A DNA stretch of 64,000 bases, from positions 2,108,001-2,172,000 of the forward strand of contig NC_022600.1 in assembly GCF_000484535.1 (NCBI RefSeq). The letters are read 5' to 3'. A program made the position numbers and the translations under genes. This document shows positions 30,521 through 59,658 of the stretch, piece after piece (position 1 is the first letter of the stretch; each line of letters opens with the position of its first letter). The DNA comes from Gloeobacter kilaueensis JS1. Its GTDB lineage: Bacteria > Cyanobacteriota > Cyanobacteriia > Gloeobacterales > Gloeobacteraceae. A model generated the notes under the pieces. The model was not told the DNA's origin and made no database searches. It saw nothing but the letters and a program-made list of their open reading frames with translations.

Positions 30521-31837
30521 CTATAACTCAGAAAGCTCGGTGCCCGTTGCCTTTTCGATATCTGCCCAAGCGTTCTGATAGGCGACCACGGTGTCGAGAT
30601 AGGCGGAGCGAATCTGCTGGTCAGATTGCTGGGCAAGGATGACAGTCGCCAGCCCAGCCTTGCCGACCTCATAGCTGCGTCGCGCCAATCGAACCACCTC
30701 GGCAGAATCAGGAAGCAAGCGCTTTTGGTATCTGCGAATGTTTTCCTGGGCGGTTGTGAGATCCTGATAAGCCGTTTGTACCTCAGCGGCGATCTGGGCA
30801 CGGATCGCCGTAGTCTGTAATTCTGACTGCTCGATAACAGCTTCAGCCTTAAAGATCTCACCTCGCTGGTTGTAGAACACAGGCAGAGGAATATTGGCAC
30901 CGATGAGCAATCCCTGAGTCTGTGGGTCGCCAATATTGTTTGCGGTGAAGGTGATACCCATGATTGCCTGCACATCCGGCGTTCGTAGCGAATCAGCAAC
31001 CCGCAACTGGGCACGGGCGACAGCAGTTTGCTGAACTGCAACGCGCAGATCGAGCCGGTGGGCGTAGGCGCGCTCCAGCAATTCCTCGGCGGAGGGTATC
31101 CGGGTGTTCTGAGTCGGAGTAAGCTCGGTTTTCTGAATATCGAGATTAAACAGGCTCTTGTCGCGCACATCGAGAGCAGTTTGGGGGCTTTCGCCCAACA
31201 AAGCATTGAGTTGCACCCGTGAGCGCTGAACGCGGCTGAGGGCAGTGGTGCGCTGGGGCTCGCCCTGGTTGCGGGCCAGCTCAGCTTGAAATAACTCCGC
31301 CTCAGCCACTGCCCCGGCATTGAATCGCTTGCGCACCAACTCCACTAATTGCCTTAACAACCGGATTTGCTCATCGATGGCCTGAACCTGGGCTTCAGAG
31401 GTGGCGAACTCGGCGTAGGCCCGCCGTACTTGAGAATGGATATCAAAGCGTTGGGCGTTCAGCTGCAGCTGAGTCAATTCGTATTCATTTGCCGCGAGCT
31501 GCAACCGAGCGTCTCGCTTTCCTCCCAATTCAAATGTCTGGGCTATGCTCACCTGCTGAAGATTATTGAAGAGGGCATAAGCATCGAAGAAACCGTAGGC
31601 TACTGAGAAGATCGGGTTGGGGACGGCACCGGCAATGGTAATGTCGGCTTGACCGATTTTGAGGATACGACGGGCCGTTACCAGTTGTGGATTGCGCTCG
31701 TCAGCCCGAGCGAATGCTTCGCTGAGAGTCAACTGGAAGCCAGAGGGAGCTTGCACCTGGGCGCAGGCTGAAATCCCAAAATCTGGTATTCCGAGCAGAG
31801 CAGCGAGAAAGATACCTGGGAGTTTTGACAACCTCAT
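30521..31837 (-). CDS. TolC/CusC-type outer-membrane factor
   Basis: 438 residues with a signal sequence (LPGIFLAALLGIPDFGISACAQ). The two-fold TolC repeat is visible: LTLSEAFARADERNPQLVTARRIL at the start, paired coiled-coil helices, and GANIPLPVFYNQRGE in the second half. It is the last gene of the minus-strand pump operon RND-adaptor-OMF (36234 to 30521) and forms the exit duct. It is a close paralogue of the plus-strand factor at 42351-43709; the shared C-terminal stretch QQIRSAYLD is nearly identical. Confidence 0.9.
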   Translation of the reverse strand: MRLSKLPGIFLAALLGIPDFGISACAQVQAPSGFQLTLSEAFARADERNPQLVTARRILKIGQADITIAGAVPNPIFSVAYGFFDAYALFNNLQQVSIAQTFELGGKRDARLQLAANEYELTQLQLNAQRFDIHSQVRRAYAEFATSEAQVQAIDEQIRLLRQLVELVRKRFNAGAVAEAELFQAELARNQGEPQRTTALSRVQRSRVQLNALLGESPQTALDVRDKSLFNLDIQKTELTPTQNTRIPSAEELLERAYAHRLDLRVAVQQTAVARAQLRVADSLRTPDVQAIMGITFTANNIGDPQTQGLLIGANIPLPVFYNQRGEIFKAEAVIEQSELQTTAIRAQIAAEVQTAYQDLTTAQENIRRYQKRLLPDSAEVVRLARRSYEVGKAGLATVILAQQSDQQIRSAYLDTVVAYQNAWADIEKATGTELSEL

Positions 31838-31864: not shown

Positions 31865-33085
31865 TTACTGGTTGACAAGTTGAATCGCGCGTCCATGCAA
31901 CTCGACGCTGCCTTTGACTGCTATCTTTTCTCCGGGGGCAAGGCCAGATTTTACTTCCACCTGCGAATCAAAGGTGCGACCGAGGATGAGACGGCGCTCT
32001 TCGTAAGTATGGTGGTCTTGCTCGACGTAAGCAACATAAGTCTCGCCGCTTTTTTGAACCGCAGCTGTAGGCACCGCGAGCACTGAAATGCTACCTGAAA
32101 GCAGAGTGAGGCGAGCGAACATCTGGGGCTTGAGTCTACCACTAGAGTTGTCGATAGTCGCTCGCACTGCCAGGGTACGCGTTTGCGGATCGAGGCCGGG
32201 TGCGATGTAGTCAAGTCGGCCACTGAAGGTTTTGCCGGGGTAACTATCGACGCGGGCCGTTGCAGGCAGCCCGATCCGGGTTGAAGCGATATCTTTTTCG
32301 AACACCTGGGCAATGAGCCACACCTTCGTCAAATCCGCTACGACAAACAGCGGCTTACTACCATCCACAAGTTCGCCCGGATTGAAATTGCGTGCTGCGA
32401 TGATGCCAGAGCGAGGAGTACGGACCATCACAGTGTTGTCAACCTTTTGCTCGCGCACCACTCGATTCGCCTCGCCTGGACCCATCCCCAAAAGCCGCAG
32501 CCGCTCAGAAGCAGTGGTGATTAGGGCATGGCGCTTGCGGACGAGACTGTGCAGAACAGCTGCTGCCTTTAGATACTCGCTTCGTGCCTGCTCAAAATCG
32601 GCGCGGACACCAACTTTTTCGGCCAAAAGCTGCTTTTCTCGCTCGAAGGTGCTCCTAGTAAGAGTCAATTGCACCTGGTCTTGCTCGCGCTCGGCGTCGA
32701 GTTCGAGAATCTGCTGGAGCAACTCCGATTCAATCTGAGCCACCTCGCTGCTGCGCAGGATGGCAAGCAGTTGACCGGCTACCACTCGCTCGCCAGGTTG
32801 GACAGCGATCCGCTCGACTCGCCCCGATACAGGGGAAGCGATCTCCGTAGTACGGTCAGCAGCGCTTTGAACCTGACCGCTTGCAACGATCTCAACCGGG
32901 AGAATGCGCTTCGTGACCGTAGAGGTGGTGATCTGGACCTGGCGAAGTTCACCGGCTTCGAGTCGAAGCCGCACAGGTCCGTCGGCCTTCGACGGTTTCG
33001 CCCGGGGTTGGGCGCTGGAGATTTTCGCGGTGCAACTGGTGAGTAAGCTACCGAGGAGCAGTGCAATCAGCAGTGGAAGCTTCAC
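31865..33085 (-). CDS. RND periplasmic adaptor (CusB/CzcB type)
   Basis: 406 residues from GTG 33085; the start overlaps the RND stop (GTGA), showing translational coupling, and GGGAG lies upstream. It has a lipoprotein signal (LIALLLGSLLTSC), a biotinyl-lipoyl hairpin flanked by helices (QVQSAADRTTEIASPVSGRVERI; MVRTPRSGIIAARNFNPGELV), a beta-barrel (PGKTFSGRLDYIAPGLDPQTRTLAV) and a membrane-proximal domain. It bridges the inner-membrane pump and the outer-membrane factor. No Cys/Met/His-rich metal tail is visible. Confidence 0.92.
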   Translation of the reverse strand: MKLPLLIALLLGSLLTSCTAKISSAQPRAKPSKADGPVRLRLEAGELRQVQITTSTVTKRILPVEIVASGQVQSAADRTTEIASPVSGRVERIAVQPGERVVAGQLLAILRSSEVAQIESELLQQILELDAEREQDQVQLTLTRSTFEREKQLLAEKVGVRADFEQARSEYLKAAAVLHSLVRKRHALITTASERLRLLGMGPGEANRVVREQKVDNTVMVRTPRSGIIAARNFNPGELVDGSKPLFVVADLTKVWLIAQVFEKDIASTRIGLPATARVDSYPGKTFSGRLDYIAPGLDPQTRTLAVRATIDNSSGRLKPQMFARLTLLSGSISVLAVPTAAVQKSGETYVAYVEQDHHTYEERRLILGRTFDSQVEVKSGLAPGEKIAVKGSVELHGRAIQLVNQ

Positions 33086-36000
33086 TTGACAGCTGTCTCC
33101 CGAATTTCAATGGGCAATGGGTCCGCTTGCTCCTGCGCCGTGTTGGGGGACGGTGCAAAGTAGCGGTAAAGGGTTGGCAGGACCAGTAATGTAAGTGCCG
33201 TAGCTGACACCAGTCCACCAATAATCACGATGGCGAAGGGTTTTTGGGTTTGCGCACCAATTTCGTTAGATAGCGCCGCAGGCAGCAGTCCTAGGGTGGC
33301 AACTGTTGCAGTCATCAGCACTGGGCGCATTCGGGCCACTGCCCCTTCAAAGACTGCTTCTTGCAGTTCCAGGCCCCGGCGTTGCAGCTCGCCCACGCAG
33401 GAGACAAGCAAAATGCCATTTTGAACGGCCACCCCAAAAAGAGCGATGAAGCCGACCCCCGCCGATATCGAGAAGTACGTGCCCGTGAAGAATAGCCCCA
33501 GCACCCCGCCAATGGCCGCCAGCGGTACGACCGCGAAGACGACAGCAGCGCTCCTGATGGTGCCAAAAGCAGCATAGAGGATTCCCAGAATGATGAGGAT
33601 AGTCACCGGCAACACGACCGCGAGTTGGGCAAGGGCCTCCTGCTGCCGCTGGAACTCGCCGCTCCAGATAATTCGATAGCCAGATGGAATCTGAATTTCG
33701 GACGCGACTCGACGCTGGGCGTCAGCCACCGCAGCTGCCAGATCCCGACCGCGCACGTTGGCCCGGATGGTCGAAAGTCTTGAACCCGCCTCGCGCCAGA
33801 CCTGGGTGGCACCGTCTACTTCTTTAAGCGAGGCCACCTGGGCCAGGGGAATTTTGGTACCCGCCGGAGTATCGATCAGCACGCGGGCGAGTGCTGTCTC
33901 ACTGTCGCGATAGGACGGAGCGAGGCGGACAGAGAGGTCGAAGCGTCGCTCCCCTTCGATGATCGAAGTGGCGACTTTGCCAGCCATCGCCGTTTCAACC
34001 AGAGCCTGCAAGTCGGAGACATTCAGGCCATAGCGCGCAGCCTGGGTGCGGTCGATTGTGACGGCGAATTGCGGTTGGCCCAGCAGCGGATCGACGATCA
34101 CATCGACAATCCCCGGTGTCTGGCGCATGAGCCTGCCCACCCGGCTTCCGAGTTCTTCCAGCTTCAGCAGATCAGGACCGGCGATCTTGGCCACCAGTGA
34201 ACCCTGGACACCCGAGAGTGCCTCGTCGAGCATCATCTGGATGTACTGGCTGAAGTAGTAGTCCACTCCAGGAATCTGTTCGAGATCACGGCGCATTGCA
34301 ACGATGAGTGCATTTTTGTCCGCGTGGAACGCGGAGCGCCATTCACGGGCCGGTTTGAGGTCCACGAAGTATTCTTGATCAGCGAATCGCATCGGGTCGG
34401 TCCCGTCGTCCGGTCCACCTTCCTGGGAGAGAACCTGTACAACTTCCGGATAACGAAGCAGGCAATTGCGCACCTTGCGCGCCACGGCAACGGAATGTTC
34501 AAGGGTGACCGAGCCGGGTTTAATCGTGGTGCGTAGCCAAATGTTGCCCTCGTCGAGGTGGGGCAAGAACTCGCTGCCCAACTGCAAGAAAACCAGCGCA
34601 GCGACCACCGAGGCGGCTACAGCTCCGCCAATCACAGGCGCGGGATGAGCAAGCGACCAGCGCAGCGAGGGGATGTAGAGGCGGCGAGCAAAATGCACCA
34701 CCGGGCTTTCGCGCTCGACGAGGGGTTTACCCACCAAAAAGATCGCGCACAGAACCGGGATAAGGGTGAGGGCAGCCACAGCCGCTCCCAAAAGGGCAGC
34801 GACCATCGTCAGTGCCAAGGGGCGAAATAGTTTTCCTTCTACCCCGCCAAAAGTGAAGATGGGTAGGAAGGTGACAACGATGACACCGATGCCGTAGAGT
34901 ACGGGCCGACCGACTTCCTGGGCGGAGTGGGTCAAAAGTTGCAAGCGCTCGCGCATGCTCAACTGCTGCCCTTCGCTCGCCAGGCGACGCACAATGTTTT
35001 CGCTCATCACCACCGCCCCGTCTACCAGGATGCCGAAATCGATCGCCCCCAGCGACAGCAAATTCGCCGGAACTCCCGCCAGACTCAAGACGATGAAGGC
35101 CACCAGGACCGATAGGGGAATGACACAGGCAGTGATGAGCGCCGATCGACCGTCGAACAGAAAGAGCCACAGCACAGCGATCACCAGGGCGATGCCCACC
35201 GCCACGTTCTCACCGACCGTGTGCAAGGTGTTGTTGATCAGACCCAGGCGGTCGTACAGGGGCACGAGCTTGACCCCTTCGGGCAGACGGGAGCGGATCT
35301 CCGGAAGCTTTTTGTAGAGACTTTCGAGCACTTTCGAAGGATTCTCGCCCGAGCGCATCCAGATGATTCCCTCGATCACATCCTCCTTGGTATCCAGACC
35401 CACCTGCCCGCGCCGCACCCTGGGGCCGACGGTTACCTCGGCAACATCGCGCACCAGCACCGGCGTTCCGGCGCTCGGGGTGGCGACGACCACCGCAGCG
35501 ATGTCAGCCTGACCTGCAAGCAGGCCCAGCTCGCGCACGATGAAAGCCTGGTTGTTTTTTTGAATGAAGCCGCCGCCTGTGGTGGCATTAGAGTTGGTGA
35601 GCGCCTCGTAGACCTGCTGGAGGGTGACGCCGTGCGCCTGCAACCGTTCCGGATCGACGTTTACCTGATAGGTTTTGGTGGGGCCACCCTGACTGATAAC
35701 ATCGATCACTCCTGGAATCTGCCGGAACGCCTTCTCCAGCTCCCACTCCTGAATGGCCCGCAGCCCCATCGGCGTGTAGTAAGGACTCTGGAGGGTGTAG
35801 CGGTAAATTTCGCGCACCGAGCCGCCGACATCCGCGTCGAGCCCCGGCTGGGCATCCTCCGGCAAGTCTGCCCCGGCAATCCTTTCGAGCACCTGCTGGC
35901 GGGCAAGGCTGGTGGGTGTGCCATCCTTGAATGTCATGGTCACAATCGACAAACCGTAGAGCGAGATCGACCGCAAAGCCGTCTGGTTGGGAATGCCATT

Positions 36001-36234
36001 TAGCTCTTTTTCTAGAGGCACCGTCACAGCGCGCTCGACCTCCTCGGTGCCCTTGCCTGGATATAGCGTGATCACTCGCACCAGCGGATCAGACAACTCT
36101 GGATAAGCCTCCAGGGGCAAGAATCGCCAGGCCAGGCCGCCTACGATCGCTATCGCCAGGGCGAGGACGATTGTCAACCAGCGTTTGGCCAGAGCGAACC
36201 CGATCAAGCGCTCGACTGGATGATTTGTAGTCAT
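33082..36234 (-). CDS. HME-RND metal efflux pump (CzcA/CusA family)
   Basis: About 1050 residues; ATG 36234 is preferred since GGAG sits 6 bp upstream (frame opens at 36270). Twelve TM helices and two large periplasmic loops are present. The TM4 proton-relay motif GAIDFGILVDGAVVMSEN is of the CzcA (divalent cation) type. It drives export of heavy metal cations with proton influx. First gene of a three-gene pump operon with its own adaptor and outer-membrane factor. Zn/Co/Cd specificity is inferred from the motif and the neighbouring ZntA-like gene. Confidence 0.93.
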   Translation of the reverse strand: MTTNHPVERLIGFALAKRWLTIVLALAIAIVGGLAWRFLPLEAYPELSDPLVRVITLYPGKGTEEVERAVTVPLEKELNGIPNQTALRSISLYGLSIVTMTFKDGTPTSLARQQVLERIAGADLPEDAQPGLDADVGGSVREIYRYTLQSPYYTPMGLRAIQEWELEKAFRQIPGVIDVISQGGPTKTYQVNVDPERLQAHGVTLQQVYEALTNSNATTGGGFIQKNNQAFIVRELGLLAGQADIAAVVVATPSAGTPVLVRDVAEVTVGPRVRRGQVGLDTKEDVIEGIIWMRSGENPSKVLESLYKKLPEIRSRLPEGVKLVPLYDRLGLINNTLHTVGENVAVGIALVIAVLWLFLFDGRSALITACVIPLSVLVAFIVLSLAGVPANLLSLGAIDFGILVDGAVVMSENIVRRLASEGQQLSMRERLQLLTHSAQEVGRPVLYGIGVIVVTFLPIFTFGGVEGKLFRPLALTMVAALLGAAVAALTLIPVLCAIFLVGKPLVERESPVVHFARRLYIPSLRWSLAHPAPVIGGAVAASVVAALVFLQLGSEFLPHLDEGNIWLRTTIKPGSVTLEHSVAVARKVRNCLLRYPEVVQVLSQEGGPDDGTDPMRFADQEYFVDLKPAREWRSAFHADKNALIVAMRRDLEQIPGVDYYFSQYIQMMLDEALSGVQGSLVAKIAGPDLLKLEELGSRVGRLMRQTPGIVDVIVDPLLGQPQFAVTIDRTQAARYGLNVSDLQALVETAMAGKVATSIIEGERRFDLSVRLAPSYRDSETALARVLIDTPAGTKIPLAQVASLKEVDGATQVWREAGSRLSTIRANVRGRDLAAAVADAQRRVASEIQIPSGYRIIWSGEFQRQQEALAQLAVVLPVTILIILGILYAAFGTIRSAAVVFAVVPLAAIGGVLGLFFTGTYFSISAGVGFIALFGVAVQNGILLVSCVGELQRRGLELQEAVFEGAVARMRPVLMTATVATLGLLPAALSNEIGAQTQKPFAIVIIGGLVSATALTLLVLPTLYRYFAPSPNTAQEQADPLPIEIRETAVK

Positions 36235-36313
36235 GCCCATCTCCGTTGTGCAAAATCCAGCGGTGCTCACGCACAGCCAGCAAGCTCAGGTGCGAAGAAA
36301 AATTTCTCCGTTA

Positions 36314-36328
36314 GTTACAAAGCGTAAC
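36314..36328 (-). promoter_or_regulatory. dyad upstream of the minus-strand pump operon
   Basis: A perfect inverted repeat, GTTAC and GTAAC around five bases, lies about 80 bp before the RND start in an AT-rich 154-bp gap. It may be an operator for a separate pump promoter. No sequence-specific factor can be named. Confidence 0.35.
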
Positions 36329-36388
36329 AAGGAAAGCCAAATTATGAAATAGGTATGAAAACTTAAATTGCTTTGGCCAGGCTTTCCT

Positions 36389-37348
36389 TCAAGGAGTTTG
36401 CTGCAGCAGATCCAGGCAGTGAGGAATCAGATCCGCACATAGCAGCGCTACACAGGCAAAGGCCAGCCAGGTAACTGCCAACCGCCAGCCCGGCACAGTT
36501 GGCCGTGGGCCGGGTACCTCGCCATGCAGACCGATCAAGTGTTCCAGGCGCTCCTCGAAGTCTTCGCCGGTAGTCGCGCACGGGCAGGCGTCACCGCTCG
36601 GGACGTGTTCTTCCAATACTTTCAGCAAAATGTTCGCCAGTCTGAGCGGTTGACCGGTCAAGCTCGCCGCCATCTCGTCGGCAGCAAGTTCGCGTTCCCG
36701 GACGAACCCTTTGTAAGCTCGTCGGCCTAAGCGGATCCGAGACGCCGCCGTTGACAAACCAGCAGCGATGGCAGCGAGCAAATTGTCCTGCCGGGCAACG
36801 TGCGCCAGCTCGTGGGCGAGCACTGGGCGCAACTGCTCCACCGACAACTGCTCGAAGTACCAGCTGGACAGATAGACTACCGGCCGGCGAAAACCCATGA
36901 CTAGGGCGACGGGTTTTTGGGTGAGCAGACGTCGCAGGAGTGGCGCGTCCATCCCGGCCTCCGCTGACAAGGTGTCGAGCAAAACCTGTGCTTCGCTCAC
37001 CTGCGCGTCTGTGCGAGAACAGGCCCGCAGTTGATCAGCAAGACGCAGGTGGCGCAGGATGTACACGCAAACGCCCGGAATGGTGAGTGCTGCGAACCCC
37101 AGTAGCGGCCACAGCGGCAGCCCAGCCAGGCCATGAGCGATCCAAGCAAGACCTCCCGCCTGCAAGTCTTCCAGAATGTGCCATAAGACGAGGCAACCGG
37201 TGGCTGCAGGAGCGGCCAGTTCGATGAGCTGTGCCTGCCGCCTGCACTCCCATCGCCGCTCGTCACGCAACCGCACCCGCGTCCAGTACCCGAGGCCCAG
37301 TGCGAAAGTTGCCCCCCCAAGCACGGGAAAAAGCAGTTCAACGAGCAT
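36389..37348 (-). CDS. BlaR1-like M56 membrane protease (regulatory)
   Basis: About 320 residues from ATG 37348, which has GGGGGAGGAGG directly before it and overlaps the end of the BlaI gene by 11 bp. Four or so TM helices surround the M56 zinc site H179-E-x-x-H183 (LAHELAHVARQDN) and the ERELAAD third-ligand motif. There is no penicillin-binding sensor as in BlaR1; instead a Cys pair (GDACPCATTGED) lies near the C-terminus and could bind metal. By analogy with BlaR1/MecR1 and with PetP of Synechocystis, it probably destroys the adjacent BlaI-type repressor upon a signal. Confidence 0.85.
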   Translation of the reverse strand: MLVELLFPVLGGATFALGLGYWTRVRLRDERRWECRRQAQLIELAAPAATGCLVLWHILEDLQAGGLAWIAHGLAGLPLWPLLGFAALTIPGVCVYILRHLRLADQLRACSRTDAQVSEAQVLLDTLSAEAGMDAPLLRRLLTQKPVALVMGFRRPVVYLSSWYFEQLSVEQLRPVLAHELAHVARQDNLLAAIAAGLSTAASRIRLGRRAYKGFVRERELAADEMAASLTGQPLRLANILLKVLEEHVPSGDACPCATTGEDFEERLEHLIGLHGEVPGPRPTVPGWRLAVTWLAFACVALLCADLIPHCLDLLQQTP

Positions 37349-37781
37349 CCTCCTCCCCCTCAAGTCGGCGCACCCGTTCGCGCAACTGCCCCAGCTTCCC
37401 AGGGCCACCGCTTACCTGTCGGCGCTCATCGAGTAAAGCGCAAAGCGCATCAGGGAATTCTCCCAGAAGATTGTCCAGAACATGGCCTAGAACGTGGTGC
37501 AAGAAATCCTCTCGACTCATCGAAGGCAGGTAGAACCGTGTTTTGCCGTTTTTGAAAACGACTTTGAGCAAATCCTTTTCGGCCAGAGCCGTCATCGTTC
37601 CCACGATCGTCTGGTGGGTTGGACCCCCGCTCTGTGACAGAAGCAGGTGAACATCTTTGCCAGACATAGGGTTGGTTGCCGACCAGACGACCTCCATAAT
37701 TTCTGCTTCGAGATCCCCGAGCACCTTCTTGAGACCCGTCTGGTTTGGACGAAACACAGCGTGGATATTTGCCAGATCCAT
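37338..37781 (-). CDS. BlaI/MecI/CopY-family repressor
   Basis: 147 residues. An N-terminal winged helix (LKKVLGDLEAEIMEVVWSATNPMSGKDVHLLL, then HQTIVGTMTALAEKDLLKV) is followed by a dimerisation region. It lacks the CxCx4CxC copper hook of CopY, so metal sensing is presumably not direct. It is transcribed into the M56 gene (overlap) and divergent from the plus-strand pump operon, so it likely represses both directions from the dyads in the 125-bp gap. Confidence 0.87.
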   Translation of the reverse strand: MDLANIHAVFRPNQTGLKKVLGDLEAEIMEVVWSATNPMSGKDVHLLLSQSGGPTHQTIVGTMTALAEKDLLKVVFKNGKTRFYLPSMSREDFLHHVLGHVLDNLLGEFPDALCALLDERRQVSGGPGKLGQLRERVRRLEGEEDAR

Positions 37782-37829
37782 TGCGATTTCTTAGTGCGAC
37801 GCGGGCGAGAACGGTTCTAATTCACATAT

Positions 37830-37867
37830 TTCGGAGGGCGTCCGAATTTGTAGAAATTCGGACTACA
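37830..37867 (+). promoter_or_regulatory. nested dyad operator cluster between BlaI and the plus-strand pump operon
   Basis: Three overlapping inverted repeats: TTCGGA/TCCGAA with 5-bp spacer (37830-37846); TCCGAATTT/AAATTCGGA around GTAG (37841-37862, perfect 9-bp arms); and TGTAG/CTACA with 9-bp spacer (37849-37867). BlaI-family operators are dyads of TACA/TGTA half-sites, so this is the likely BlaI target controlling both transcription units. Confidence 0.65.
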
Positions 37868-37906
37868 CTCGAAATAGTTGCATTGTAACAGGGGGAAGGT
37901 AGGCGG

Positions 37907-39166
37907 ATGCGGAACCGGTTTGCCTCGAAGCTCGGGTTCCTGCCTTTGCTGGTACTCCTAGTAGCGTGTTCGGCACCTGCAACGCAGGTACCCATCGGGG
38001 AGACGGCCAGAGCGGCACGGGAGCCGAGTGTGGTCGCACTTACCCCAGAGATGGTCGAGCGGGCTGGTGTGCGCACAGCTACCGTCCGTCGAAGGCCGTT
38101 ACTTGGTACAGAAACTTATAGTGCGACGGTGGAGCCGACGCGTACGGGGGCAGCGGTGGTTGCTTCACTGGTCAACGGCACCGTCACCAGGCTGCTCGTC
38201 GATCTTGGTCAGAGCGTGCGCCAGGGCCAGGCGCTGCTGGAGATGGTAAGTCCAGAGGCAGGCCAGGCGAAGGCGGAGTACCGCTCGGCTCTCGCCCGCC
38301 TGGAGCAGGCGAAGACGCGGTCCAATCTTGCCCAGACCCAGGTGGATCTGGCCGGGGCCGCCGTACAGCGCGAAAAGCTGCTCGTCGCAAAAGGGATCAG
38401 CGCCCTGCAGTCACAGCAGGAGGCTGAGGCGCGGCTTGCGGGGATTCGGGCAGATCGGGCGACTGCCCGTTCAGATGTAGGTGTCGCGCAGGCAGCGGCG
38501 GCGGCAGCGGCTTCTCGATTGCGCGCGTTCGGCCTGGGTGCCGGACAGTTGCGCCAGATCGCCCAGGGTGAAGATCTCGACCCGCGCCTGTTCGTGGTGA
38601 GTCCCATTGCTGGCAGGGTGATTGCGTTGCAGGCGCAATTGGGTCAGGCGGTGGCACTCACCGCGCCATTGATGACGGTGGGAGATCTCGATCGGGTCTA
38701 CGTGCAGTTGCTGGTACCCCAGGCGCGTCTGGCAGAACTGAACCCTGGCGATTTGGTGCGGTTTATGAGCGAAGTGGCACCGGGACGAACTTTTGTCGGG
38801 CGGGTGCTCCGCCAAGCCCAGAGCCTGGATCCAACCACACGCAACGCTGAGGTGCGCGTGGAGATCGCCAATCCGGGAAGTGTGCTCAAACCAGGGACGC
38901 TGGTGCAGGCGACGGTGCGTACCCGGCTGGCCGGCGATGCTATCGTCCTCCCGGCCACCGCTCTGCAACAAGTCAAAGGCAAGGACGTAGTGTTCGTGAA
39001 AATCGGACCAAATACCTTCCGCGCCCGCCCGGTCGCTGTCGGGCAAAAGACTGCCGAAGCTGCCCAGATCCTCCGTGGGGTAGCAGCCGGGGAATCAGTG
39101 GTGACGAATGGCTCTTTCTCGATTAAGGCGGAACTACTCAAAGCCTCGCTCCAGGAAGAGGAGTAA
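37907..39166 (+). CDS. RND periplasmic adaptor (CzcB type)
   Basis: 419 residues with a GGGGGAAGG site before ATG 37907 and a lipoprotein signal (LLVLLVAC). Beta-barrel and lipoyl parts are clear (VASLVNGTVTRLLVDLGQSVRQGQALLEM; VVSPIAGRVIALQAQLGQAV), and long coiled-coil helices rich in Ala and Gln follow (about 125-205). It starts the plus-strand operon adaptor-RND-OMF-ATPase-ZIP. The gap to the RND gene is 6 bp. Confidence 0.92.
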   Translation: MRNRFASKLGFLPLLVLLVACSAPATQVPIGETARAAREPSVVALTPEMVERAGVRTATVRRRPLLGTETYSATVEPTRTGAAVVASLVNGTVTRLLVDLGQSVRQGQALLEMVSPEAGQAKAEYRSALARLEQAKTRSNLAQTQVDLAGAAVQREKLLVAKGISALQSQQEAEARLAGIRADRATARSDVGVAQAAAAAAASRLRAFGLGAGQLRQIAQGEDLDPRLFVVSPIAGRVIALQAQLGQAVALTAPLMTVGDLDRVYVQLLVPQARLAELNPGDLVRFMSEVAPGRTFVGRVLRQAQSLDPTTRNAEVRVEIANPGSVLKPGTLVQATVRTRLAGDAIVLPATALQQVKGKDVVFVKIGPNTFRARPVAVGQKTAEAAQILRGVAAGESVVTNGSFSIKAELLKASLQEEE

Positions 39167-39172
39167 GTATAG

Positions 39173-42100
39173 ATGAGCAATGCACGAACCCAAACGGCTC
39201 CCGATGCACAGCTTCAAACCATTCCGGAGGCGAAAGGCATCGCCAGATGGGTTTACAGCGCCCTGCGCCAGCGGGTGCTCATCCTGGCCCTGTTACTCGT
39301 TGTGCTGGGTATAGGCGTTACCTCCCTGCTCAAAGTCAAGGTCAACTCGGTGCCCGACATCTCTAACCTGCAGGTCACCGTCACTGTGAATGCCCGTGGC
39401 CTGGCCCCACAGGAAGTAGAGCAGTACGTCACCTATCCGGTCGAGCTGAATCTGCAGAATCTTCCCCGGCTGCAGTATGTCCGGTCGGTTTCCAAATACG
39501 CTCTATCCCAGGTAACTGCCATTTTCGAGGACGGCACCGATATCTATTGGGCCAGGCAACAGGTAGCCGAGCGCCTGCGCGGCGTTCAAGAACAGTTCCC
39601 CGCCGGGCAAATCGACCTGGAACTGGGTCCCATCGCCACGGGTCTGGGAGAAGTACTCATCTTTCGCGTTCAGGGGCCGGGTTACAGTTTGATGCAACTG
39701 CGCGACATCCTCGACTGGCAGATCGCACCGGTGCTGCGGGGCGTGAGCGGGGTAGACACTGTGGACACGATGGGGGGCGCTGCCAAGGAGTACCAGGTGC
39801 GTCTTTTACCGGACAAGCTGCGTGGGTACGCCCTGACCCCCGCCCAGGTGATGGATGCCCTGCGAAACAGTAACCAGAATGCTGGGGGCGGCTACTACGT
39901 CCAGAACGAAAACCAGATTCTGATTCGCGGCAAAGGTTTACTTCAGAACCTCCAGGACATCGGCCAGGTAGTCGTTACTCGCACCACCAGAGGCATCGTG
40001 CGCGTCCGGGATGTGGCGGAGGTGGCGATCGGCAGTCGGCTCTCTCAAGGGGCGATCACCGCCAACGGTAGAGGAGAGACGGTGGCCGGTATCGTGATCA
40101 TGCGGCTCGGGGAGAACCCAAAGCAGGTGATCACCCGCGTCCAGCGAAAAATTTCCGAACTGCGGCCCAGCTTGCCCCCCGGTGTCAATATCAAGAGCGT
40201 CTACAACCAGGAAGACCTCATCGACCGGGCGATCGAGACGGTGGCGGAGAATCTGGCTGTCGGTGCCGCGCTGGTGGTGATTATCTTGTTCTTGCTGCTG
40301 GGCAGCTTTCGCGGTGGCCTGGTGACAGCGGCGGCTATCCCCCTGTCGCTGGTGGGTGCTGCGACATTTCTGGCGTACACCAACACCTCCGGCAACCTCC
40401 TGTCGCTCGGTGCCCTTGACTTCGGGCTGCTGGTGGACGGCTCGGTGGTGATGGTCGAGAACATCATGCGCCGCCTCGCTGACAACCGCCCTCTGCCCGA
40501 GGAGCGCCTTGCCGTGGTTCAGCAGGCAGCAGGAGAGATGGCCCGACCGGTCTTGTTCGCCGTCAGCATCATCATCGTCGTCTACCTCCCGATCTTGTTC
40601 TTGACGGGGGTGGCAGGGAAGACCTTCCAGCCGATGGCGCTGACGGTGGTGGCGGCGCTGGCTTCCTCGCTGGTGGTTGCCCTTTTCGTCACTCCGGTGC
40701 TCGCCTACTTCGCGTTCAAGAACCCGCCCAAGGAAGAGGAAACCTGGGTGCTCAGGGCGATACGGTATCCCTATGAAAGGCTGCTGGCCTGGTGTACCGG
40801 CAATCGTTTGTGGACTGCGGTGATTGCCCTCGGCTTCTTTCTGGTGAGCCTGTTTCCCCTGACATTCCTGGGAGCGGAATTCATCCCGCAGCTTTCGGAG
40901 GGCTCCCTGGTGCTCAGTCTCGTCCGTCCGCCCGCTAGTTCGCTCGAAGCGGCAGTGCGTCAGACAAGCTTGATCGAAAAAGTGCTCAAGGAATTCCCGG
41001 ACATCGAGACGACGATGGGCCGCACAGGCCGTTCGGAGACGGCCTTTGACCCGATGGGTCCAGATGTGACGGATTTCTACGTTATCCTCAAGCCCCGCTC
41101 TGAGTGGAAGCAATTTAAGACCCAAGACGAAATCGAAGAAGCAATCGGCAAACGGTTGGCTGAGGCAGTTCCTGGAGCCGCCATCTCGATCGGTCAACCC
41201 ATCGAGAACCGTACCAACGAACTTATCGCCGGTGCCAAGGCTGACGTCGCCGTCCGTCTCTATGGCCCGGATCTTGACCAGCTCAAGAAGACAGGCGATG
41301 CTATCGCGCAGACCGTGGGAACGGTAAGCGGAGCCGTCGATGTTGTCACCGAGAAAGTAGATGGCCTCCCCTCGATCAGCGCCCAGATCGATCGCTCAAA
41401 ACTGGCCGCCTACGGCATCAGTACCCAGGCGGTGATGGAGACGGTCGAGGCGTCCGTCAGCGGCAAAGTTGTCGGCAAAGTGTTCCAGGGTAGACCGCGC
41501 TACAACCTGGTAGTGCGCTTCGCTCCCTCGGCTTTACCGAATATCGAAAGCCTTGCCAATTTACCTGTGGCAACGACTTCAGGTCAGTTGATTCCACTAT
41601 CTTCGGTGGCACGGGTTGCTATCGATGAAGGGCCAGCCCAGATTTCCCATCGTTCTGGAGAACGGGTGCTCACAGTGCAGATGAACGTGCGCGGTCGGGA
41701 TCTTGGAGGTTTCGTAGCCGATGCCCAGAAAGCGGTGGAGAGCAAGGTCGCCTTGCCCTCCGGCTACCGTATCGAGTGGGGAGGTGAATTTGAAAATTTG
41801 CAAGAAGCACAGGGAAGGCTGTTCGTCCTCGTGCCGCTGACGCTGGTCTTGATCTTTATCTTGCTTTACAGCACCTATGGCAGCTTTCGCCCCGGTGTGC
41901 TCATCTTCTTGAACGTGCCGCTTGCCCTCTCCGGCGGGTTGCTGGCCCTCGCGCTGAGGAGCCTTCCTCTGTCGGTAACTGCCGGGGTGGGCTTCATTGC
42001 TCTATTCGGTGTTGCCGTGCTCAATGGCGTCGTGTTGGTCTCCACGATCCGCAAGCTTGAGGAAGAAGGTTTGCCCGCCGAGGCAGCTGCCCAAGAAGGG

Positions 42101-42361
42101 GCCAGAGAACGATTGCGGCCCGTGTTGATGACAGCCCTGGTCGCCTCGCTGGGTTTCGTACCGATGGCTCTGGCGACAGGACCTGGAGCAGAAGTCCAGC
42201 GTCCTCTTGCCACTGTGGTAATCGGTGGCCTCATCACTGCCACCTTGCTCACGCTACTTGTCCTGCCTGCCCTTTATCCTGTGATCTGTGGACGCGACGG
42301 ATTCAAACTGCTGTGGCGCTCTAAAGACAGGCGTCACTCGGCCAGTAGCGATGCCCCTTAG
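39173..42361 (+). CDS. HME-RND metal efflux pump (CzcA family)
   Basis: 1062 residues. The N-terminal TM1 (RVLILALLLVVLGIGVTSLL), the HME loop (VPDISNLQVTVTVNARGLAPQEVEQ) and the TM4 proton-relay motif GALDFGLLVDGSVVMVEN are typical of CzcA-type divalent cation exporters. The C-terminal half repeats the TM pattern (GVGFIALFGVAVLNGVVLV). It lies directly after its adaptor and overlaps the following outer-membrane factor gene. Zn/Cd/Co is the likely substrate group given the ZntA-like ATPase and ZIP gene in the same unit. Confidence 0.94.
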   Translation: MSNARTQTAPDAQLQTIPEAKGIARWVYSALRQRVLILALLLVVLGIGVTSLLKVKVNSVPDISNLQVTVTVNARGLAPQEVEQYVTYPVELNLQNLPRLQYVRSVSKYALSQVTAIFEDGTDIYWARQQVAERLRGVQEQFPAGQIDLELGPIATGLGEVLIFRVQGPGYSLMQLRDILDWQIAPVLRGVSGVDTVDTMGGAAKEYQVRLLPDKLRGYALTPAQVMDALRNSNQNAGGGYYVQNENQILIRGKGLLQNLQDIGQVVVTRTTRGIVRVRDVAEVAIGSRLSQGAITANGRGETVAGIVIMRLGENPKQVITRVQRKISELRPSLPPGVNIKSVYNQEDLIDRAIETVAENLAVGAALVVIILFLLLGSFRGGLVTAAAIPLSLVGAATFLAYTNTSGNLLSLGALDFGLLVDGSVVMVENIMRRLADNRPLPEERLAVVQQAAGEMARPVLFAVSIIIVVYLPILFLTGVAGKTFQPMALTVVAALASSLVVALFVTPVLAYFAFKNPPKEEETWVLRAIRYPYERLLAWCTGNRLWTAVIALGFFLVSLFPLTFLGAEFIPQLSEGSLVLSLVRPPASSLEAAVRQTSLIEKVLKEFPDIETTMGRTGRSETAFDPMGPDVTDFYVILKPRSEWKQFKTQDEIEEAIGKRLAEAVPGAAISIGQPIENRTNELIAGAKADVAVRLYGPDLDQLKKTGDAIAQTVGTVSGAVDVVTEKVDGLPSISAQIDRSKLAAYGISTQAVMETVEASVSGKVVGKVFQGRPRYNLVVRFAPSALPNIESLANLPVATTSGQLIPLSSVARVAIDEGPAQISHRSGERVLTVQMNVRGRDLGGFVADAQKAVESKVALPSGYRIEWGGEFENLQEAQGRLFVLVPLTLVLIFILLYSTYGSFRPGVLIFLNVPLALSGGLLALALRSLPLSVTAGVGFIALFGVAVLNGVVLVSTIRKLEEEGLPAEAAAQEGARERLRPVLMTALVASLGFVPMALATGPGAEVQRPLATVVIGGLITATLLTLLVLPALYPVICGRDGFKLLWRSKDRRHSASSDAP

Positions 42362-43709
42362 TAAGCGCATACAACGTGCAGTGATTGCAATGACCAGAAC
42401 TACGCGGTTGTCTCTAGGATTCGTTGTTGTCGGCTTGCTGTTGGCATCAGCTGTGTCCGCGACTGCACAGCCCATCTTCCCGTCCTCCAATGCTGCTCTG
42501 CGCCTTGGTCTTTCTGAGGCGTTTGCGAGCGCCGAAGCGCGCAATCTGCAACTTGCCGCCGCCCGGCGCAACCTGGGGCTGGCCCAGGCGGACATCACCG
42601 CCGCTGGGGCGGTTCCCAATCCCCAACTGGCCGTCTCCTACGGGTTCGGGCCGGTATTCAGTGACAATGGTGAACCACAACAGGTGAGCCTTGCCCAGAC
42701 CCTCCAACTTGGAGGCAAACGGCAGGCACGGTTGGATCTCGCTGACACCCAGTACCGGCTCGCGGTCCTCGAACTGAATGCATCGCGCTTCGAGATCCGT
42801 GGACGGGTACGCAGGGCTTATGCTGAGCTTGCGGCAGCAGAGGCAACGGCTCGCTCCCTTGATGCTCAGGGCTCCCTCGCAGACCGGCTGGTGGAAACCG
42901 CTCGGGCGCGTGTCGAGGCAGGAGCTGCACCCAGATCTGAACTATTGCAGGCCCAACTGGTCCGCGCTCAATTGCAACCGCAACGGGTTCAGGCCGAGGG
43001 CCGCATCGAAAATGCCCGTGCCCAACTGGCAACCCAACTGGGAGATGGACCGGAGCAGCAGGTGGAACTGACGGACGAAGGACTATTTCAGCTCTCCGCA
43101 GAGAAAACCGAACTCGTCCCCCGTCCGAACACGCCCCTGCCATCTCTAGAATCGCTAACCGAACGGGCTTACGAAAGGCGTCCGGAACTACAGGCTGCGC
43201 TGCAGCAGATCGAAGTGGCGCGCCGTCAACTGCGCCTCGCCCAGGCTCTGCGCACTCCAGATCTGCAGGTGGGGGCAGCGTACCTGTTCACTACGGCCAG
43301 AAGCGCACCGCTGGCCAGCGGTTTCGCTCTTTCTTTTGGGGTGACGTTGCCGATCTTCTACAACCAGACCGGCGAAGTTACCAGGGCCGAGGCCGCCATC
43401 GACCAGAGCAGCGCGCGGGTGACGGCTCTGCGCCAGAGTGTCACCACTTCTGTCCGTGTCGCTTACCGCTCGCTGGTCGTCGCTCAAAGTAACGTCTCGC
43501 GCTACCGCAGCGAATTGCTGCCTGCCTCCGAAAATGTCCTCGACCTCGCACGCCAGGGTTATCAACTGGGCAAAGCTCCCCTCAGCAGCGTCATCCTGGC
43601 TCAGCAGGCGGACCAGCAGATCCGCTCCGCCTATCTCGACGCCGTAGTCGCCTATCAAAACGCTTACGCGGATCTCGAGGTCGCTGTGGGAGAACCACTC
43701 GATTTCTAG
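42351..43709 (+). CDS. TolC/CzcC-type outer-membrane factor
   Basis: About 453 residues from ATG 42351, which overlaps the RND stop by 11 bp; ATG 42390 is an alternative that gives a cleaner signal peptide (RLSLGFVVVGLLLASAVSATA). Tandem TolC repeats are seen (LRLGLSEAFASAEARNLQLAAARR; LTERAYERRPELQAALQQIE) with long coiled-coil helices. It is paralogous to the minus-strand factor at 30521-31837, with which it shares long near-identical C-terminal DNA. Confidence 0.9.
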   Translation: MPLSKRIQRAVIAMTRTTRLSLGFVVVGLLLASAVSATAQPIFPSSNAALRLGLSEAFASAEARNLQLAAARRNLGLAQADITAAGAVPNPQLAVSYGFGPVFSDNGEPQQVSLAQTLQLGGKRQARLDLADTQYRLAVLELNASRFEIRGRVRRAYAELAAAEATARSLDAQGSLADRLVETARARVEAGAAPRSELLQAQLVRAQLQPQRVQAEGRIENARAQLATQLGDGPEQQVELTDEGLFQLSAEKTELVPRPNTPLPSLESLTERAYERRPELQAALQQIEVARRQLRLAQALRTPDLQVGAAYLFTTARSAPLASGFALSFGVTLPIFYNQTGEVTRAEAAIDQSSARVTALRQSVTTSVRVAYRSLVVAQSNVSRYRSELLPASENVLDLARQGYQLGKAPLSSVILAQQADQQIRSAYLDAVVAYQNAYADLEVAVGEPLDF

Positions 43710-43741: not shown

Positions 43742-45712
43742 ATGCCGCACCCTCACCAAACAGGCTGCAACCACTGCGAAGATGACCAATCCAACAAGCC
43801 CCGCGCTCTCGATCAAGATCATGATCATGACCACGAGCACGACAACCAGGGCGGATTCGACCTCAGGAGCACAGCCCTACCCCTGGTTGTCGTGCTCGTC
43901 CTGCTGATCCTGGGTTCTATTTTCGAGCAGAAGCTGCACAATACGCCTTACCGGTTCGGCGAATTCCTCATTTTGCTGCCCGCCTATCTACTGAGTGGCT
44001 GGAGTGTGCTGCGCGCTGCAGCGCGCAACATTCTGCGCGGCAAGATATTTGACGAGAACTTCCTGATGAGTATTGCGACTTTGGGAGCGATCGCGATTGA
44101 CCAGTTGCCCGAGGCTGTGGGCGTGATGCTGTTTTTTAAGGTAGGCGAACTTTTCCAGGACTACTCGATCAACCGCTCACGCAACTCGATCCGGGCGCTT
44201 CTGGAGGTGCGCCCTGACTACGCTAACGTCAAAATCGACGAAGACGTCCAAAAAGTGTCTCCGGAGCAAGTCGAGATTGGGCAGCAGATCCTGGTTCGAC
44301 CCGGTGAAAAAATTCCTCTCGACGGAGAGGTGCTGGAAGGGTCTTCTCAGGTAGATACCTCGGCACTGACCGGGGAATCTGTGCCCCGCCCAATCGAAGT
44401 CGGCGATACCGTGCTTGCAGGCATGCTCAACCGCTCAGGGGTTCTCACCCTCAAGGTAACCAGACCATTCGGAGAATCGTCGATCGCCAAGATTTTGGAT
44501 CTGGTAGAGAACGCCAGCAGCAAAAAAGCGGAAACTGAGAAGTTCATCACAAAGTTTGCCAGGTACTATACCCCTGTCGTAGTCTTTGGTGCTTTAGCCG
44601 TCGCTGTCCTTCCGCCCCTACTGGTGCCTGGTGCCACCTTTTCGCAGTGGCTCTATCGCGCCCTGGTGCTGTTGGTCATCTCCTGTCCCTGTGGCCTCGT
44701 CATCAGCATCCCGCTCGGCTATTTCGGCGGGGTGGGTGGCGCGGCCCGTCGAGGCATCCTGGTCAAGGGTTCGACTTTCCTCGATACCCTCACCGCCGTC
44801 AGGACCGTCGTCTTCGACAAGACAGGAACACTGACCAAAGGGGTCTTTAAAGTGACCCGAATCGTTCCCAAGACCGGCTTTGAGCAAGCAGAACTGCTGC
44901 CGCTCGCTGCCAAGGCTGAATCTCTGTCCAACCACCCGGTAGCCCAATCCATTCGAGACGCCTACGGCAGCACTGTCGAACCATCCGAGGTACACGATTA
45001 CGAGGAGATAGCCGGTCACGGCATCCGGGCCAACGTGCAGGGACGTCAGGTCGTGGCCGGTAACGACCGCTTGCTGCATCGCGAAGGCATTGCTCACGAC
45101 GAGTGCCAGGTGGATGGTACTGTTGTCCACATAGCTGTGGATGGCCGCTACGCAGGTTACATCGTCATCTCCGATGAAATCAAAGAAGATGCTGCCCGGG
45201 CAGTCTCACAACTCAAAAAGTTGGGGGTGTCTAAGACCGTAATGCTGACAGGCGACAGCCGTGCGGTGGCCGAGGAGGTTGCCCGCAGGCTCGATCTGGA
45301 CGATTACGTCGCCGAGTTGCTGCCCGAGCACAAAGTAGAAGCGCTTGAAAAGCTCATGGCAAAGACAGCAAGCGGTGGCAAGGCCGTCTTTATCGGCGAT
45401 GGGATCAACGATGCCCCGGTGATCGCAAGGGCCGATGTGGGCATGGCTATGGGCGCTCTGGGTTCCGACGCCGCTATCGAGACAGCGGATGTCGTGATCA
45501 TGACCGACGCACCATCCAAAGTGGCCGAAGCAATCGAGATCGCCCGCAAGACCAGAAGCATTGTCCTGCAGAACATCGGCTTGGCCCTGGCGGTAAAAGG
45601 CGTATTCATCACTTTGGGCCTCTTCGGTCTAGCCTCAATGTGGGAGGCTGTCTTCGCCGACGTGGGAGTGGCGCTGTTGGCCATATTCAACGCCACCAGA
45701 GTCCTTAAATAG
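43742..45712 (+). CDS. Zn/Cd-type P1B ATPase (ZntA/CadA-like)
   Basis: 656 residues. The short N-terminus has a His/Asp-rich patch (DHDHDHEHD) after CNHC instead of a folded metal domain. The core has TGES (LTGESVPRP), C315-P-C317 in CPCGLV, phosphorylation D359 in DKTGT, NHPVA and GDGINDAPVI. CPCGL(V) with a histidine-rich head is seen in P1B-2 Zn/Cd/Pb pumps. It exports metal from cytoplasm to periplasm, from where the RND pump can remove it. Same operon as the CzcBAC-like genes. Confidence 0.92.
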   Translation: MPHPHQTGCNHCEDDQSNKPRALDQDHDHDHEHDNQGGFDLRSTALPLVVVLVLLILGSIFEQKLHNTPYRFGEFLILLPAYLLSGWSVLRAAARNILRGKIFDENFLMSIATLGAIAIDQLPEAVGVMLFFKVGELFQDYSINRSRNSIRALLEVRPDYANVKIDEDVQKVSPEQVEIGQQILVRPGEKIPLDGEVLEGSSQVDTSALTGESVPRPIEVGDTVLAGMLNRSGVLTLKVTRPFGESSIAKILDLVENASSKKAETEKFITKFARYYTPVVVFGALAVAVLPPLLVPGATFSQWLYRALVLLVISCPCGLVISIPLGYFGGVGGAARRGILVKGSTFLDTLTAVRTVVFDKTGTLTKGVFKVTRIVPKTGFEQAELLPLAAKAESLSNHPVAQSIRDAYGSTVEPSEVHDYEEIAGHGIRANVQGRQVVAGNDRLLHREGIAHDECQVDGTVVHIAVDGRYAGYIVISDEIKEDAARAVSQLKKLGVSKTVMLTGDSRAVAEEVARRLDLDDYVAELLPEHKVEALEKLMAKTASGGKAVFIGDGINDAPVIARADVGMAMGALGSDAAIETADVVIMTDAPSKVAEAIEIARKTRSIVLQNIGLALAVKGVFITLGLFGLASMWEAVFADVGVALLAIFNATRVLK

Positions 45713-45727
45713 TCGAGGCAATTTTTG

Positions 45728-46453
45728 ATGGGCAACTTGCGCTTCGAGGTCTTCGCCTATGCTCTGCTGCCTGCCGTAGCGATCGTTGCAGGTGGAATTT
45801 TTGCTGCCTTCAAGCCACCACAGGCAAGTGCCAGGAGTATCATCCAGCATTTTGCGGCGGGCGTCTTGTTCTCCAGCATTGGAGTCGAACTGTTGCCTAA
45901 CATCGTTCGGGAGCATGCCCCTGTCGAAGTGATTCTCGGTTTCTCGACGGGGGTAGGGGCGATGCTGGTCCTGCGGCAGTGGACACGGGCCAGAGCAAAG
46001 TCCGAGAGCGACTCCCAGCAAACGGCGAGCAGTTTGATCGCCACGGTTGGAGTCGATGTGGCAATCGATGGCGCGCTTGTGGGTGTCGGTTTTGCTGCAG
46101 GGGCGGAGTCGGGGCGGTTACTCGCCTTGGCCCTGGCCCTCGAAGCGTTGTTCCTCGGCCTGAGTGCGGCGGGTGCGTTGACAAAGTCCGGCGCGAGCCG
46201 CAGGCGTACCATCTCGGCAACCCTGGTCCTGGCTTTGCTATTCGTCCTTGGTGCGGGTACAGGAACGACCTTACTGGCAGGACTCAAAGGGCCGTATTTG
46301 GAAGTCGTACTGTCCTTCGGACTCGCTGCACTGTTGTTTCTGGTGACGGAGGAACTGCTCGTGGAAGCGCACCAGGAACTTGAAACCCCGTTCACCACAG
46401 CTACCTTCTTCGCTGGCTTCCTGTTGTTCCTGGTGCTTGGAATGATCAATTAG
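45728..46453 (+). CDS. ZIP-family metal transporter
   Basis: About 241 residues from ATG 45728 (a TTG precedes it). Eight hydrophobic helices are visible with ZIP-type landmarks: QHFAAGVLFSSIGVELLP (the metal-binding HxxxG helix), GVDVAIDGALVGVGFAAG (in place of HN..DG) and a final EELLVEAHQE. The ZIP helix 4 reads DVAIDG rather than HNFPEG, so metal choice may differ. It is last in the pump/ATPase unit. It may bring metal in, or work in either direction; direction cannot be read from sequence. Confidence 0.75.
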   Translation: MGNLRFEVFAYALLPAVAIVAGGIFAAFKPPQASARSIIQHFAAGVLFSSIGVELLPNIVREHAPVEVILGFSTGVGAMLVLRQWTRARAKSESDSQQTASSLIATVGVDVAIDGALVGVGFAAGAESGRLLALALALEALFLGLSAAGALTKSGASRRRTISATLVLALLFVLGAGTGTTLLAGLKGPYLEVVLSFGLAALLFLVTEELLVEAHQELETPFTTATFFAGFLLFLVLGMIN

Positions 46454-46578: not shown

Positions 46579-46929
46579 ATGTTTGTTTCCAAACCGACGG
46601 CCTGCCCTGCCTGCAATGTGTCTGTAGCAGGTGCCCCAGTGGCGCTTATCCCTGCCGACGAGCGCGCCGAGCAGGATCTGGCCACGCTCTGCAAAGCCCT
46701 TGGCCATCCCATCCGGGTACGTATCTTAAAAATTCTTGCCGCCCGCCGCAGCTGTGTGTGCGGCGATCTCGTTGAGATGCTGCCGATTGCCCAGTCCACC
46801 GTCTCCGAGCATCTGCGCATCCTCAAGCAGGCGGGCCTGATCCAGGGAGAGGTGGACGGCCCCAGGGTGTGCTACTGCATCCAGCCTGCCAGCCTCGACC
46901 GCCTCAAGCAGTTGGTGACGGCGCTTTGA
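46579..46929 (+). CDS. arsR: ArsR-family metalloregulator
   Basis: 116 residues. The winged HTH includes the alpha-3 metal site C59-V-C61 (SCVCGDLVEMLPIAQSTVSEHLR) found in arsenic- and cadmium-sensing ArsR members. Additional Cys pairs lie at the N-terminus (C9-x-x-C12) and near the C-terminus (C98-x-C100), so up to six thiols could serve As(III). It probably represses itself and arsI from two similar dyads. A terminator hairpin overlaps its stop codon. Confidence 0.88.
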   Translation: MFVSKPTACPACNVSVAGAPVALIPADERAEQDLATLCKALGHPIRVRILKILAARRSCVCGDLVEMLPIAQSTVSEHLRILKQAGLIQGEVDGPRVCYCIQPASLDRLKQLVTAL

Positions 46930-52691: not shown

Positions 52692-52706
52692 CCCGTTCCT
52701 CCTCGA

Positions 52707-54143: not shown

Positions 54144-54219
54144 CTCGATCGCTCCAGAACAAGCCTGCCGCCATCGCTCAACCAACTTTAGCCTGTTTTG
54201 CAGAGGGTGCAAAAGATTT

Positions 54220-55137: not shown

Positions 55138-55140
55138 CCT

Positions 55141-59654: not shown

Positions 59655-59658
<4 letters not shown>

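Follow-up and report, generated by a model that had tools for sequence, protein, structure and literature searches.

What do the dense palindromes in the 125-bp gap between two divergent genes of Gloeobacter kilaueensis JS1 mean, and which protein reads them? The genome (G000) is a single contig of 4,724,791 bases, and the window referred to below is the whole 64,000-nucleotide stretch of it that was analysed. Relatives named in a profile scan (Gloeobacterales cyanobacteria, Aphanocapsa lilacina and Candidatus Cyanaurora vandensis) agree with its place in the Gloeobacterales. The gap and the genes on both sides of it are as follows.

37782–37906, intergenic gap of 125 bp, flanked by two start codons: ATG of blaI at 37781, minus strand, and ATG of the right adaptor gene at 37907, plus strand
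37338–37781, minus strand, BlaI_1, BlaI/MecI-family repressor of 147 aa (PF03965, 65.3 bits; cut-off 22.6)
36389–37348, minus strand, M56/M48-like (BlaR1-like) membrane metallopeptidase (M48, 31.7 bits; cut-off 20.3)
33082–36270, minus strand, left RND pump of the CusA/CzcA family (TIGR00914, 983 bits; cut-off 701)
31865–33085, minus strand, left periplasmic adaptor (HlyD_D23, 188 bits)
30521–31837, minus strand, left outer-membrane factor (OEP, 155 bits)
37907–39166, plus strand, right periplasmic adaptor (HlyD_D23, 135.5 bits)
39173–42361, plus strand, right RND pump of the CusA/CzcA family (TIGR00914, 1087.7 bits; cut-off 701)
42288–43709, plus strand, right outer-membrane factor (OEP, 164.1 bits)
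43742–45712, plus strand, P-type ATPase of the cadmium (Zn/Cd/Pb) family (TIGR01512, 538 bits; cut-off 313.5)
45725–46453, plus strand, ZIP-family metal transporter (PF02535, 41 bits; cut-off 35.1)

The preliminary description of this DNA took the gap for the shared control region of two pump operons. Its role as a control region for both directions is supported by the findings below, and so is the neighbouring BlaI-type repressor as the best candidate to bind it; the left-hand operon is unproven. The peptidase and left RND ORFs are separated by 118 bases (36271–36388), which contain a GTTAC-N5-GTAAC repeat (noticed by eye) and could hold a separate promoter. Given this second gap, the left RND, adaptor and outer-membrane factor genes may belong to the blaI transcript or may be transcribed from a promoter of their own.

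The three dyads that had been described within 38 bp (37830–37867) are all present. The first, TTCGGA-GGGCG-TCCGAA, is located at 37830–37846; the second, TCCGAATTT-GTAG-AAATTCGGA, is perfect at 37841–37862, with arms that extend to 10 bp at 37840–37863; and the third, the TGTAG/CTACA pair at 37849–37867, has arms of only 5 bp. When the gap was shuffled 3000 times with its dinucleotides kept, a single shuffle produced a perfect arm of 9 bp or more with a loop no longer than 12, and 0.2% of the shuffles reached the gap's summed dyad score. The palindromes of the gap are real and non-random. Perfect 9-bp dyads occur in about eight places (12 rows) across the 64-kb window, so it is the placement in the gap, and not the mere existence of a long dyad, that matters.

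The same letters are better read as two non-overlapping, inward-facing sites of 17 bp than as three nested dyads. These candidate operators, and the larger block in which they are embedded, are arranged as follows.

37830–37846, operator O1 (BlaI side): TTCGGA-GGGCG-TCCGAA, a perfect 6-N5-6 dyad of 17 bp
37847–37856, spacer between O1 and O2: 10 bp, TTTGTAGAAA (0 bp at the related loci L034 and L035)
37857–37873, operator O2 (adaptor side): TTCGGA-CTACA-CTCGAA, with a degenerate right half (4/6 pairs)
37814–37889, imperfect palindrome of 76 bp, with 26/36 arm positions complementary around GTAG: putative back-to-back divergent promoter-operator block
37814–37819, minus strand, TAGAAC, putative -10-like hexamer for blaI by position and symmetry, exactly 10 bp beyond O1
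37884–37889, plus strand, TGTAAC, putative -10-like hexamer for the adaptor operon by flank symmetry, exactly 10 bp beyond O2

Both O2 and the wider symmetry of 37814–37889 are additions to the earlier account. The half-sites run TTCGGA, TCCGAA, TTCGGA and cTCGAA across the gap, and the two sites are 27 bp apart from start to start. The long dyad with 10-bp arms is a by-product of this arrangement, in which the inner halves of O1 and O2 (right and left, respectively) face each other, and the TGTAG/CTACA pair, with its 5-bp arms, looks accidental and needs no explanation. O1 is the only perfect TTCGGA-N5-TCCGAA in the 4.72-Mb genome. When up to two mismatches to TTCGGANNNNNTCCGAA were allowed, O1 and O2 were the only matches in the 64-kb window (2.55 are expected per 64 kb), and by our own arithmetic the chance of a second such match in the same 125-bp gap is about 0.004. 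With one mismatch allowed, the O1 pattern occurs in three places in the genome and a reversed control pattern in ten, and relaxed matches of this kind are thus uninformative.

Of 703,153 placements scored across the window, the 76-bp block ranks first for symmetry. The 16-nt flanks outside O1 and O2 agree with each other in 11 of 16 positions (P of about 0.0002 for random 16-mers of the same composition), and beyond 37814–37889 the symmetry is at chance, so that longer arms add chance agreement only. The idea that the palindrome arose when a whole pump was duplicated in inverted orientation was considered and rejected, because the identities between the left and right proteins are low (39% for RND, 28% for the adaptors and 51% for the outer-membrane factors) and the DNA symmetry ends at the promoter block. 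Judging from the sequence, we read the block as two back-to-back promoters, each with one putative operator. The proposed -10 hexamers match TATAAT at just four of six positions, and their assignment is based on position and symmetry, since a promoter scan of the gap gave no consensus sigma-70 promoter. A function of the palindrome as RNA hairpin or DNA cruciform, in place of protein sites, is highly improbable. The segment 37814–37889, taken as single-stranded RNA, does fold at -24.8 kcal/mol (z = -4.83), but such folding is expected of any comparable dyad; the palindrome has no match in Rfam, the scan of the gap found no terminator-like site, and in the related loci L031–L033 the corresponding gap has one short dyad only. 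Transcripts starting at the proposed -10 elements would, moreover, leave the palindrome untranscribed.

The candidate to bind these sites, BlaI_1, has an AlphaFold model (mean pLDDT 83.2) with an N-terminal winged helix and a helical dimerisation domain, the helices and wing in order. Residues 56–68 form a helix in this model that is equivalent to the recognition helix, the part of BlaI that reads DNA. The best matches by fold in the PDB are 2g9w, 1sd4, 1xsd and 1sd6, and the solved structures nearest to BlaI_1 are those of the M. tuberculosis BlaI and of staphylococcal and Bacillus-type BlaI/MecI. The closest of all, in sequence (family-profile E = 1.8e-15) as well as in fold, is M. tuberculosis BlaI Rv1846c (2g9w), with 28% identity over the structural alignment. 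As for a mobile source of BlaI_1, no plasmid record had a place covering 80% of it, the 12 weak matches being below 60% identity, and this possibility was dismissed.

The adjoining peptidase probably starts at the ATG at 37348, as estimated from the sequence, so that it overlaps the blaI stop; the listed ORF begins at 37408. It has a HELAH motif, and its M56 (PF05569) score of 29.0 bits lies below the cut-off of 31, while the peptidases of L031, L035 and the second pair in the window pass it (34.3, 42.6 and 47.9 bits, respectively). In staphylococci, which have a repressor of the same family and fold whose gene likewise adjoins a membrane metallopeptidase gene, the peptidase carries a penicillin sensor domain. 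Unlike this, no such penicillin-binding domain was detected by Pfam in the 339-aa Gloeobacter ORF, where M48 and M56 are the only matches with E < 0.001. For the BlaI/MecI repressors, proteolytic inactivation has been described (PMC5772342).

The operators of the staphylococcal proteins differ from O1 and O2, as the bla/mec operator is described as of the TACA/TGTA type (PMC7253601). The TACA-N2-TGTA core of bla, mec and cop operators was not seen in the gap on inspection by eye, nor was TACANNTGTA; in the TGTAG...CTACA of the gap the order is reversed, with 9 bp between the two elements. The copper repressors CopY/CopR resemble the proposed system in that a BlaI-type DNA-binding domain controls metal export, but their operator is described as RNYKACANNTGTMRNY, 16 bp long and 6-N4-6 (PMC7253601). 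They also have C-terminal Cys-x-Cys metal sites, whereas BlaI_1 has a single Cys, at position 114. BlaI_1 is accordingly not a CopY/TcrY protein: it scores 26 bits with TIGR02698 against a cut-off of 121.95, and the Cys-x-Cys C-terminus is absent.

A close parallel is found in Clostridium thermocellum. In DAP-seq, BlaI_0696 of this bacterium recognised inverted GTCTAT hexamers five nucleotides apart, with two motifs at each of three targets; BlaI_1845 had four single repeats, as two pairs, before the gene; and binding to single motif copies was confirmed by EMSA (PMC8457756). The Gloeobacter gap likewise has inverted hexamers 5 nt apart, perfect in O1 and with four of six pairs in O2, and two such motifs at one target, although O2 is the weaker. 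Two inverted repeats per target promoter would correspond to four protomers, and autoregulation, a tiny regulon and a peptidase (BlaR1) gene in the operon are further features that the proposed system would share with that described for C. thermocellum (PMC8457756). The differences from the system in that report are the half-site, GTCTAT there and TTCGGA here; the targets, linked to the beta-lactam response there and metal-type RND pumps here; and the promoter, which in Gloeobacter is divergent and symmetric (PMC8457756).

Nine genomes of the order, including that of G. kilaueensis, were compared, and all nine have BlaI matches. Orthologs of BlaI_1 (group 1) exist in six of the nine (G. kilaueensis itself, G001, G002, G003, G005 and G008), the five others being 54–56% identical to BlaI_1 (54–55% in a multiple alignment). 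In all five relatives the group-1 blaI is divergent from a pump operon, but the pump is of another type, its RND protein being 68–72% identical to the third RND of the window. In G008 either a frameshift or an assembly error has divided this RND gene (L035, 4401–7531) into two neighbouring ORFs, both of which match the third RND of the window. A PF03965 match in two pieces, apparently a broken gene, was also seen in this genome (G008:C35:9257-9596), a few kilobases from an intact BlaI.

The divergent gap of four of the five relatives contains a perfect TTTGAA-N5-TTCAAA, and L035 has a 5-of-6 version. This dyad occurs in only five places in the nine genomes: four are group-1 blaI promoters, one per genome, and the fifth falls within an ORF of G006 that is coding; G. 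kilaueensis has none. The perfect TTCGGA-N5-TCCGAA, for its part, occurs in two places in the nine genomes, O1 and the inside of a coding ORF of G006. Second sites that are partly degenerate, as O2 is, were also found in L034, L035, L036 and L041. At L034 and L035 the two sites abut: their starts are 17 bp apart, where those of O1 and O2 are separated by 27 bp. As these distances differ by 10 bp, about one helical turn, the two bound dimers would be kept at a nearly equal relative angle.

These relatives bear directly on the earlier suggestion that the dyads overlap and are mutually exclusive, with BlaI binding in alternative registers and repressing the two directions to different, graded degrees. 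On paper the dyads do overlap, and the central palindrome with 10-bp arms is the most perfect of them. However, the half-sites of this central dyad face outward and lie 10 bp from each other, an arrangement seen at no relative compared, and two inward sites placed next to each other produce such a dyad automatically. Where the sites abut with a period of 17 bp (L034 and L035), the central dyad is reshaped and the two sites persist. Two inward sites of 17 bp are thus preserved in the relatives and the central dyad is not, which resolves the dyads into adjacent, non-overlapping sites of one geometry, and we reject the overlapping arrangement as very unlikely.

The sites could instead belong to another regulator, such as an ArsR/SmtB-type metal sensor encoded nearby. 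Two ORFs of the window, at 46579–46929 (just past the ZIP gene) and 59655–60035, both beside metal transport genes, are presumably ArsR-like repressors, and the TTTGAA-N5-TTCAAA of the relatives resembles the TGAA/TTCA repeats of SmtB-type operators. Nevertheless, no ORF in the stretches L031–L035 matches the ArsR proteins of the window, yet the site is present there; the half-site varies together with BlaI; and other BlaI clades have the same geometry with unrelated half-sites. Such a regulator is therefore unlikely, and BlaI_1 is retained as the probable binder of O1 and O2.

The difference in half-site is accompanied by changes in the recognition helix. S55, S57 and C61 are common to the five group-1 orthologs, and BlaI_1, which has T55, H56, Q57 and G61, is alone in the substitutions S55T, S57Q and C61G. 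Position 56 is Y in four of the orthologs and H in that of G005 (ISHSTVAC), whose operator is nevertheless of the TTTGAA type, so that a change at position 56 alone is insufficient for the new half-site. T55, Q57 and G61 thus occur in the sole group-1 member whose operator differs; as a single event, this coincidence in the sequences is suggestive, not proof, of a link between helix and half-site.

How far does the 6-N5-6 geometry extend? Group 2 includes BlaI_2 (55141–55569), part of a second BlaI-M56-adaptor-RND locus in the window (49548–55569); a candidate site, TTTGCT-ggcac-TGCAAA, begins 59 bp ahead of the BlaI_2 start. Six of nine group-2 loci have TTTGCA-like halves with the same 5-base spacer, and the other three group-2 BlaI promoters (in G002, G003 and G004) gave no 6-N5-6 dyad. 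Two group-2 loci (L036 and L041) are divergent from a pump of their own and have two sites 30 bp apart. Among more distant bacteria, Thermincola (L049 and L052) and a member of Eubacteriales (L050) have TACTAT-N5-ATAGTA upstream of BlaI, and a member of Sericytochromatia (L053) has TACGAT-N5-ATCGTA; the BlaI proteins of these four loci have AYTTVM helices. A further BlaI (L061, G004:C64 near 19201–19539) has the helix LAYTTIMTTLDRL and, upstream, TACGAT-tgacg-ATAGTA, which fits the TACTAT-like sites of the YTT helices.

Perfect 6-N5-6 dyads were found in six of 15 BlaI upstream regions, whereas the shuffle mean was 0.57 and a count of six was never reached in 300 shuffles. When 5-of-6 pairs were accepted, a spacer of 5 was found in 13 of the 15 regions and spacers of 3, 7 and 9 in 14 each, so only the count of perfect dyads is informative. 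Of 36 other cyanobacterial PF03965 loci, which belong to neither group, six (L064, L065, L066, L100, L076 and L095) have a perfect 6-N5-6 dyad upstream, and in four further loci the HTH was unreadable. G. kilaueensis also has a third-group BlaI with TTTGAC-N11-GTCAAA upstream (L068, 1388–1410; G000:C1 near 2040640), the counterparts in G001–G003 having TTTGAC-N5-GTCAAA. A rule for all cyanobacterial PF03965 proteins thus fails, with only six of 36 loci having the dyad; given also the promoters without it in G002–G004 and the N11 site of the third group, the geometry is a feature of this BlaI-M56 clade and not of the family.

Taken as a whole, O1 and O2 are probably twin BlaI_1 operators that shut both directions, are released through the peptidase and have a TTCGGA specificity diverged from TTTGAA. 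One BlaI_1 dimer would occupy each 17-bp site, its TTCGGA half-sites facing inward across 5 bp, and each site would cover the promoter of one direction, directly upstream of its -10 element. Since one repressor would cover both directions, BlaI_1 would simultaneously shut the operon of blaI and the peptidase gene and, in the divergent direction, the adaptor-RND-OMF-ATPase-ZIP operon. Under the stress that the pumps relieve, the M56-like membrane peptidase would inactivate BlaI_1 and both directions would open, with the autoregulation of blaI resetting the switch. We infer that the inducing signal is most likely a divalent metal, because the right operon encodes a cadmium-family ATPase and a CzcA/CusA-type RND pump. 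The TTCGGA half-site, together with the helix changes at 55, 57 and 61, would represent a specificity diverged from the TTTGAA of the sister BlaI proteins. The twin-site layout is known from other bacteria, while the sequence that the repressor would read looks new.

More tentatively, the locus may be a proteolytic BlaI-M56 switch that responds to metal stress and not to antibiotics and controls two pump operons through one symmetric promoter. Its repressor and operator may have been re-specified together (TTTGAA to TTCGGA, with helix positions 55, 57 and 61), which would prevent cross-talk between the two BlaI-M56 pairs that this genome has at a distance of about 17 kb. Among the titles and abstract openings searched, none dealt with the control of RND or metal pumps by a BlaI-M56 pair in cyanobacteria, an absence that is weak evidence of novelty.

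In short, a cluster of palindromes can be recast as a testable pair of operators, the interest of which is moderate and lies mainly in the way operator and recognition helix diverged together and in the link to metal-type pumps. It raises the question of what a peptidase with no penicillin sensor detects. The two-site 6-N5-6 BlaI operator would be extended from Clostridia to cyanobacteria of the Gloeobacterales, and from beta-lactam-linked genes to metal-type pumps. The half-sites TTTGAA, TTTGCA, TTTGAC, TTCGGA, TACTAT and TACGAT, together with the known helix sequences, may serve as a natural set for the recognition code of BlaI.
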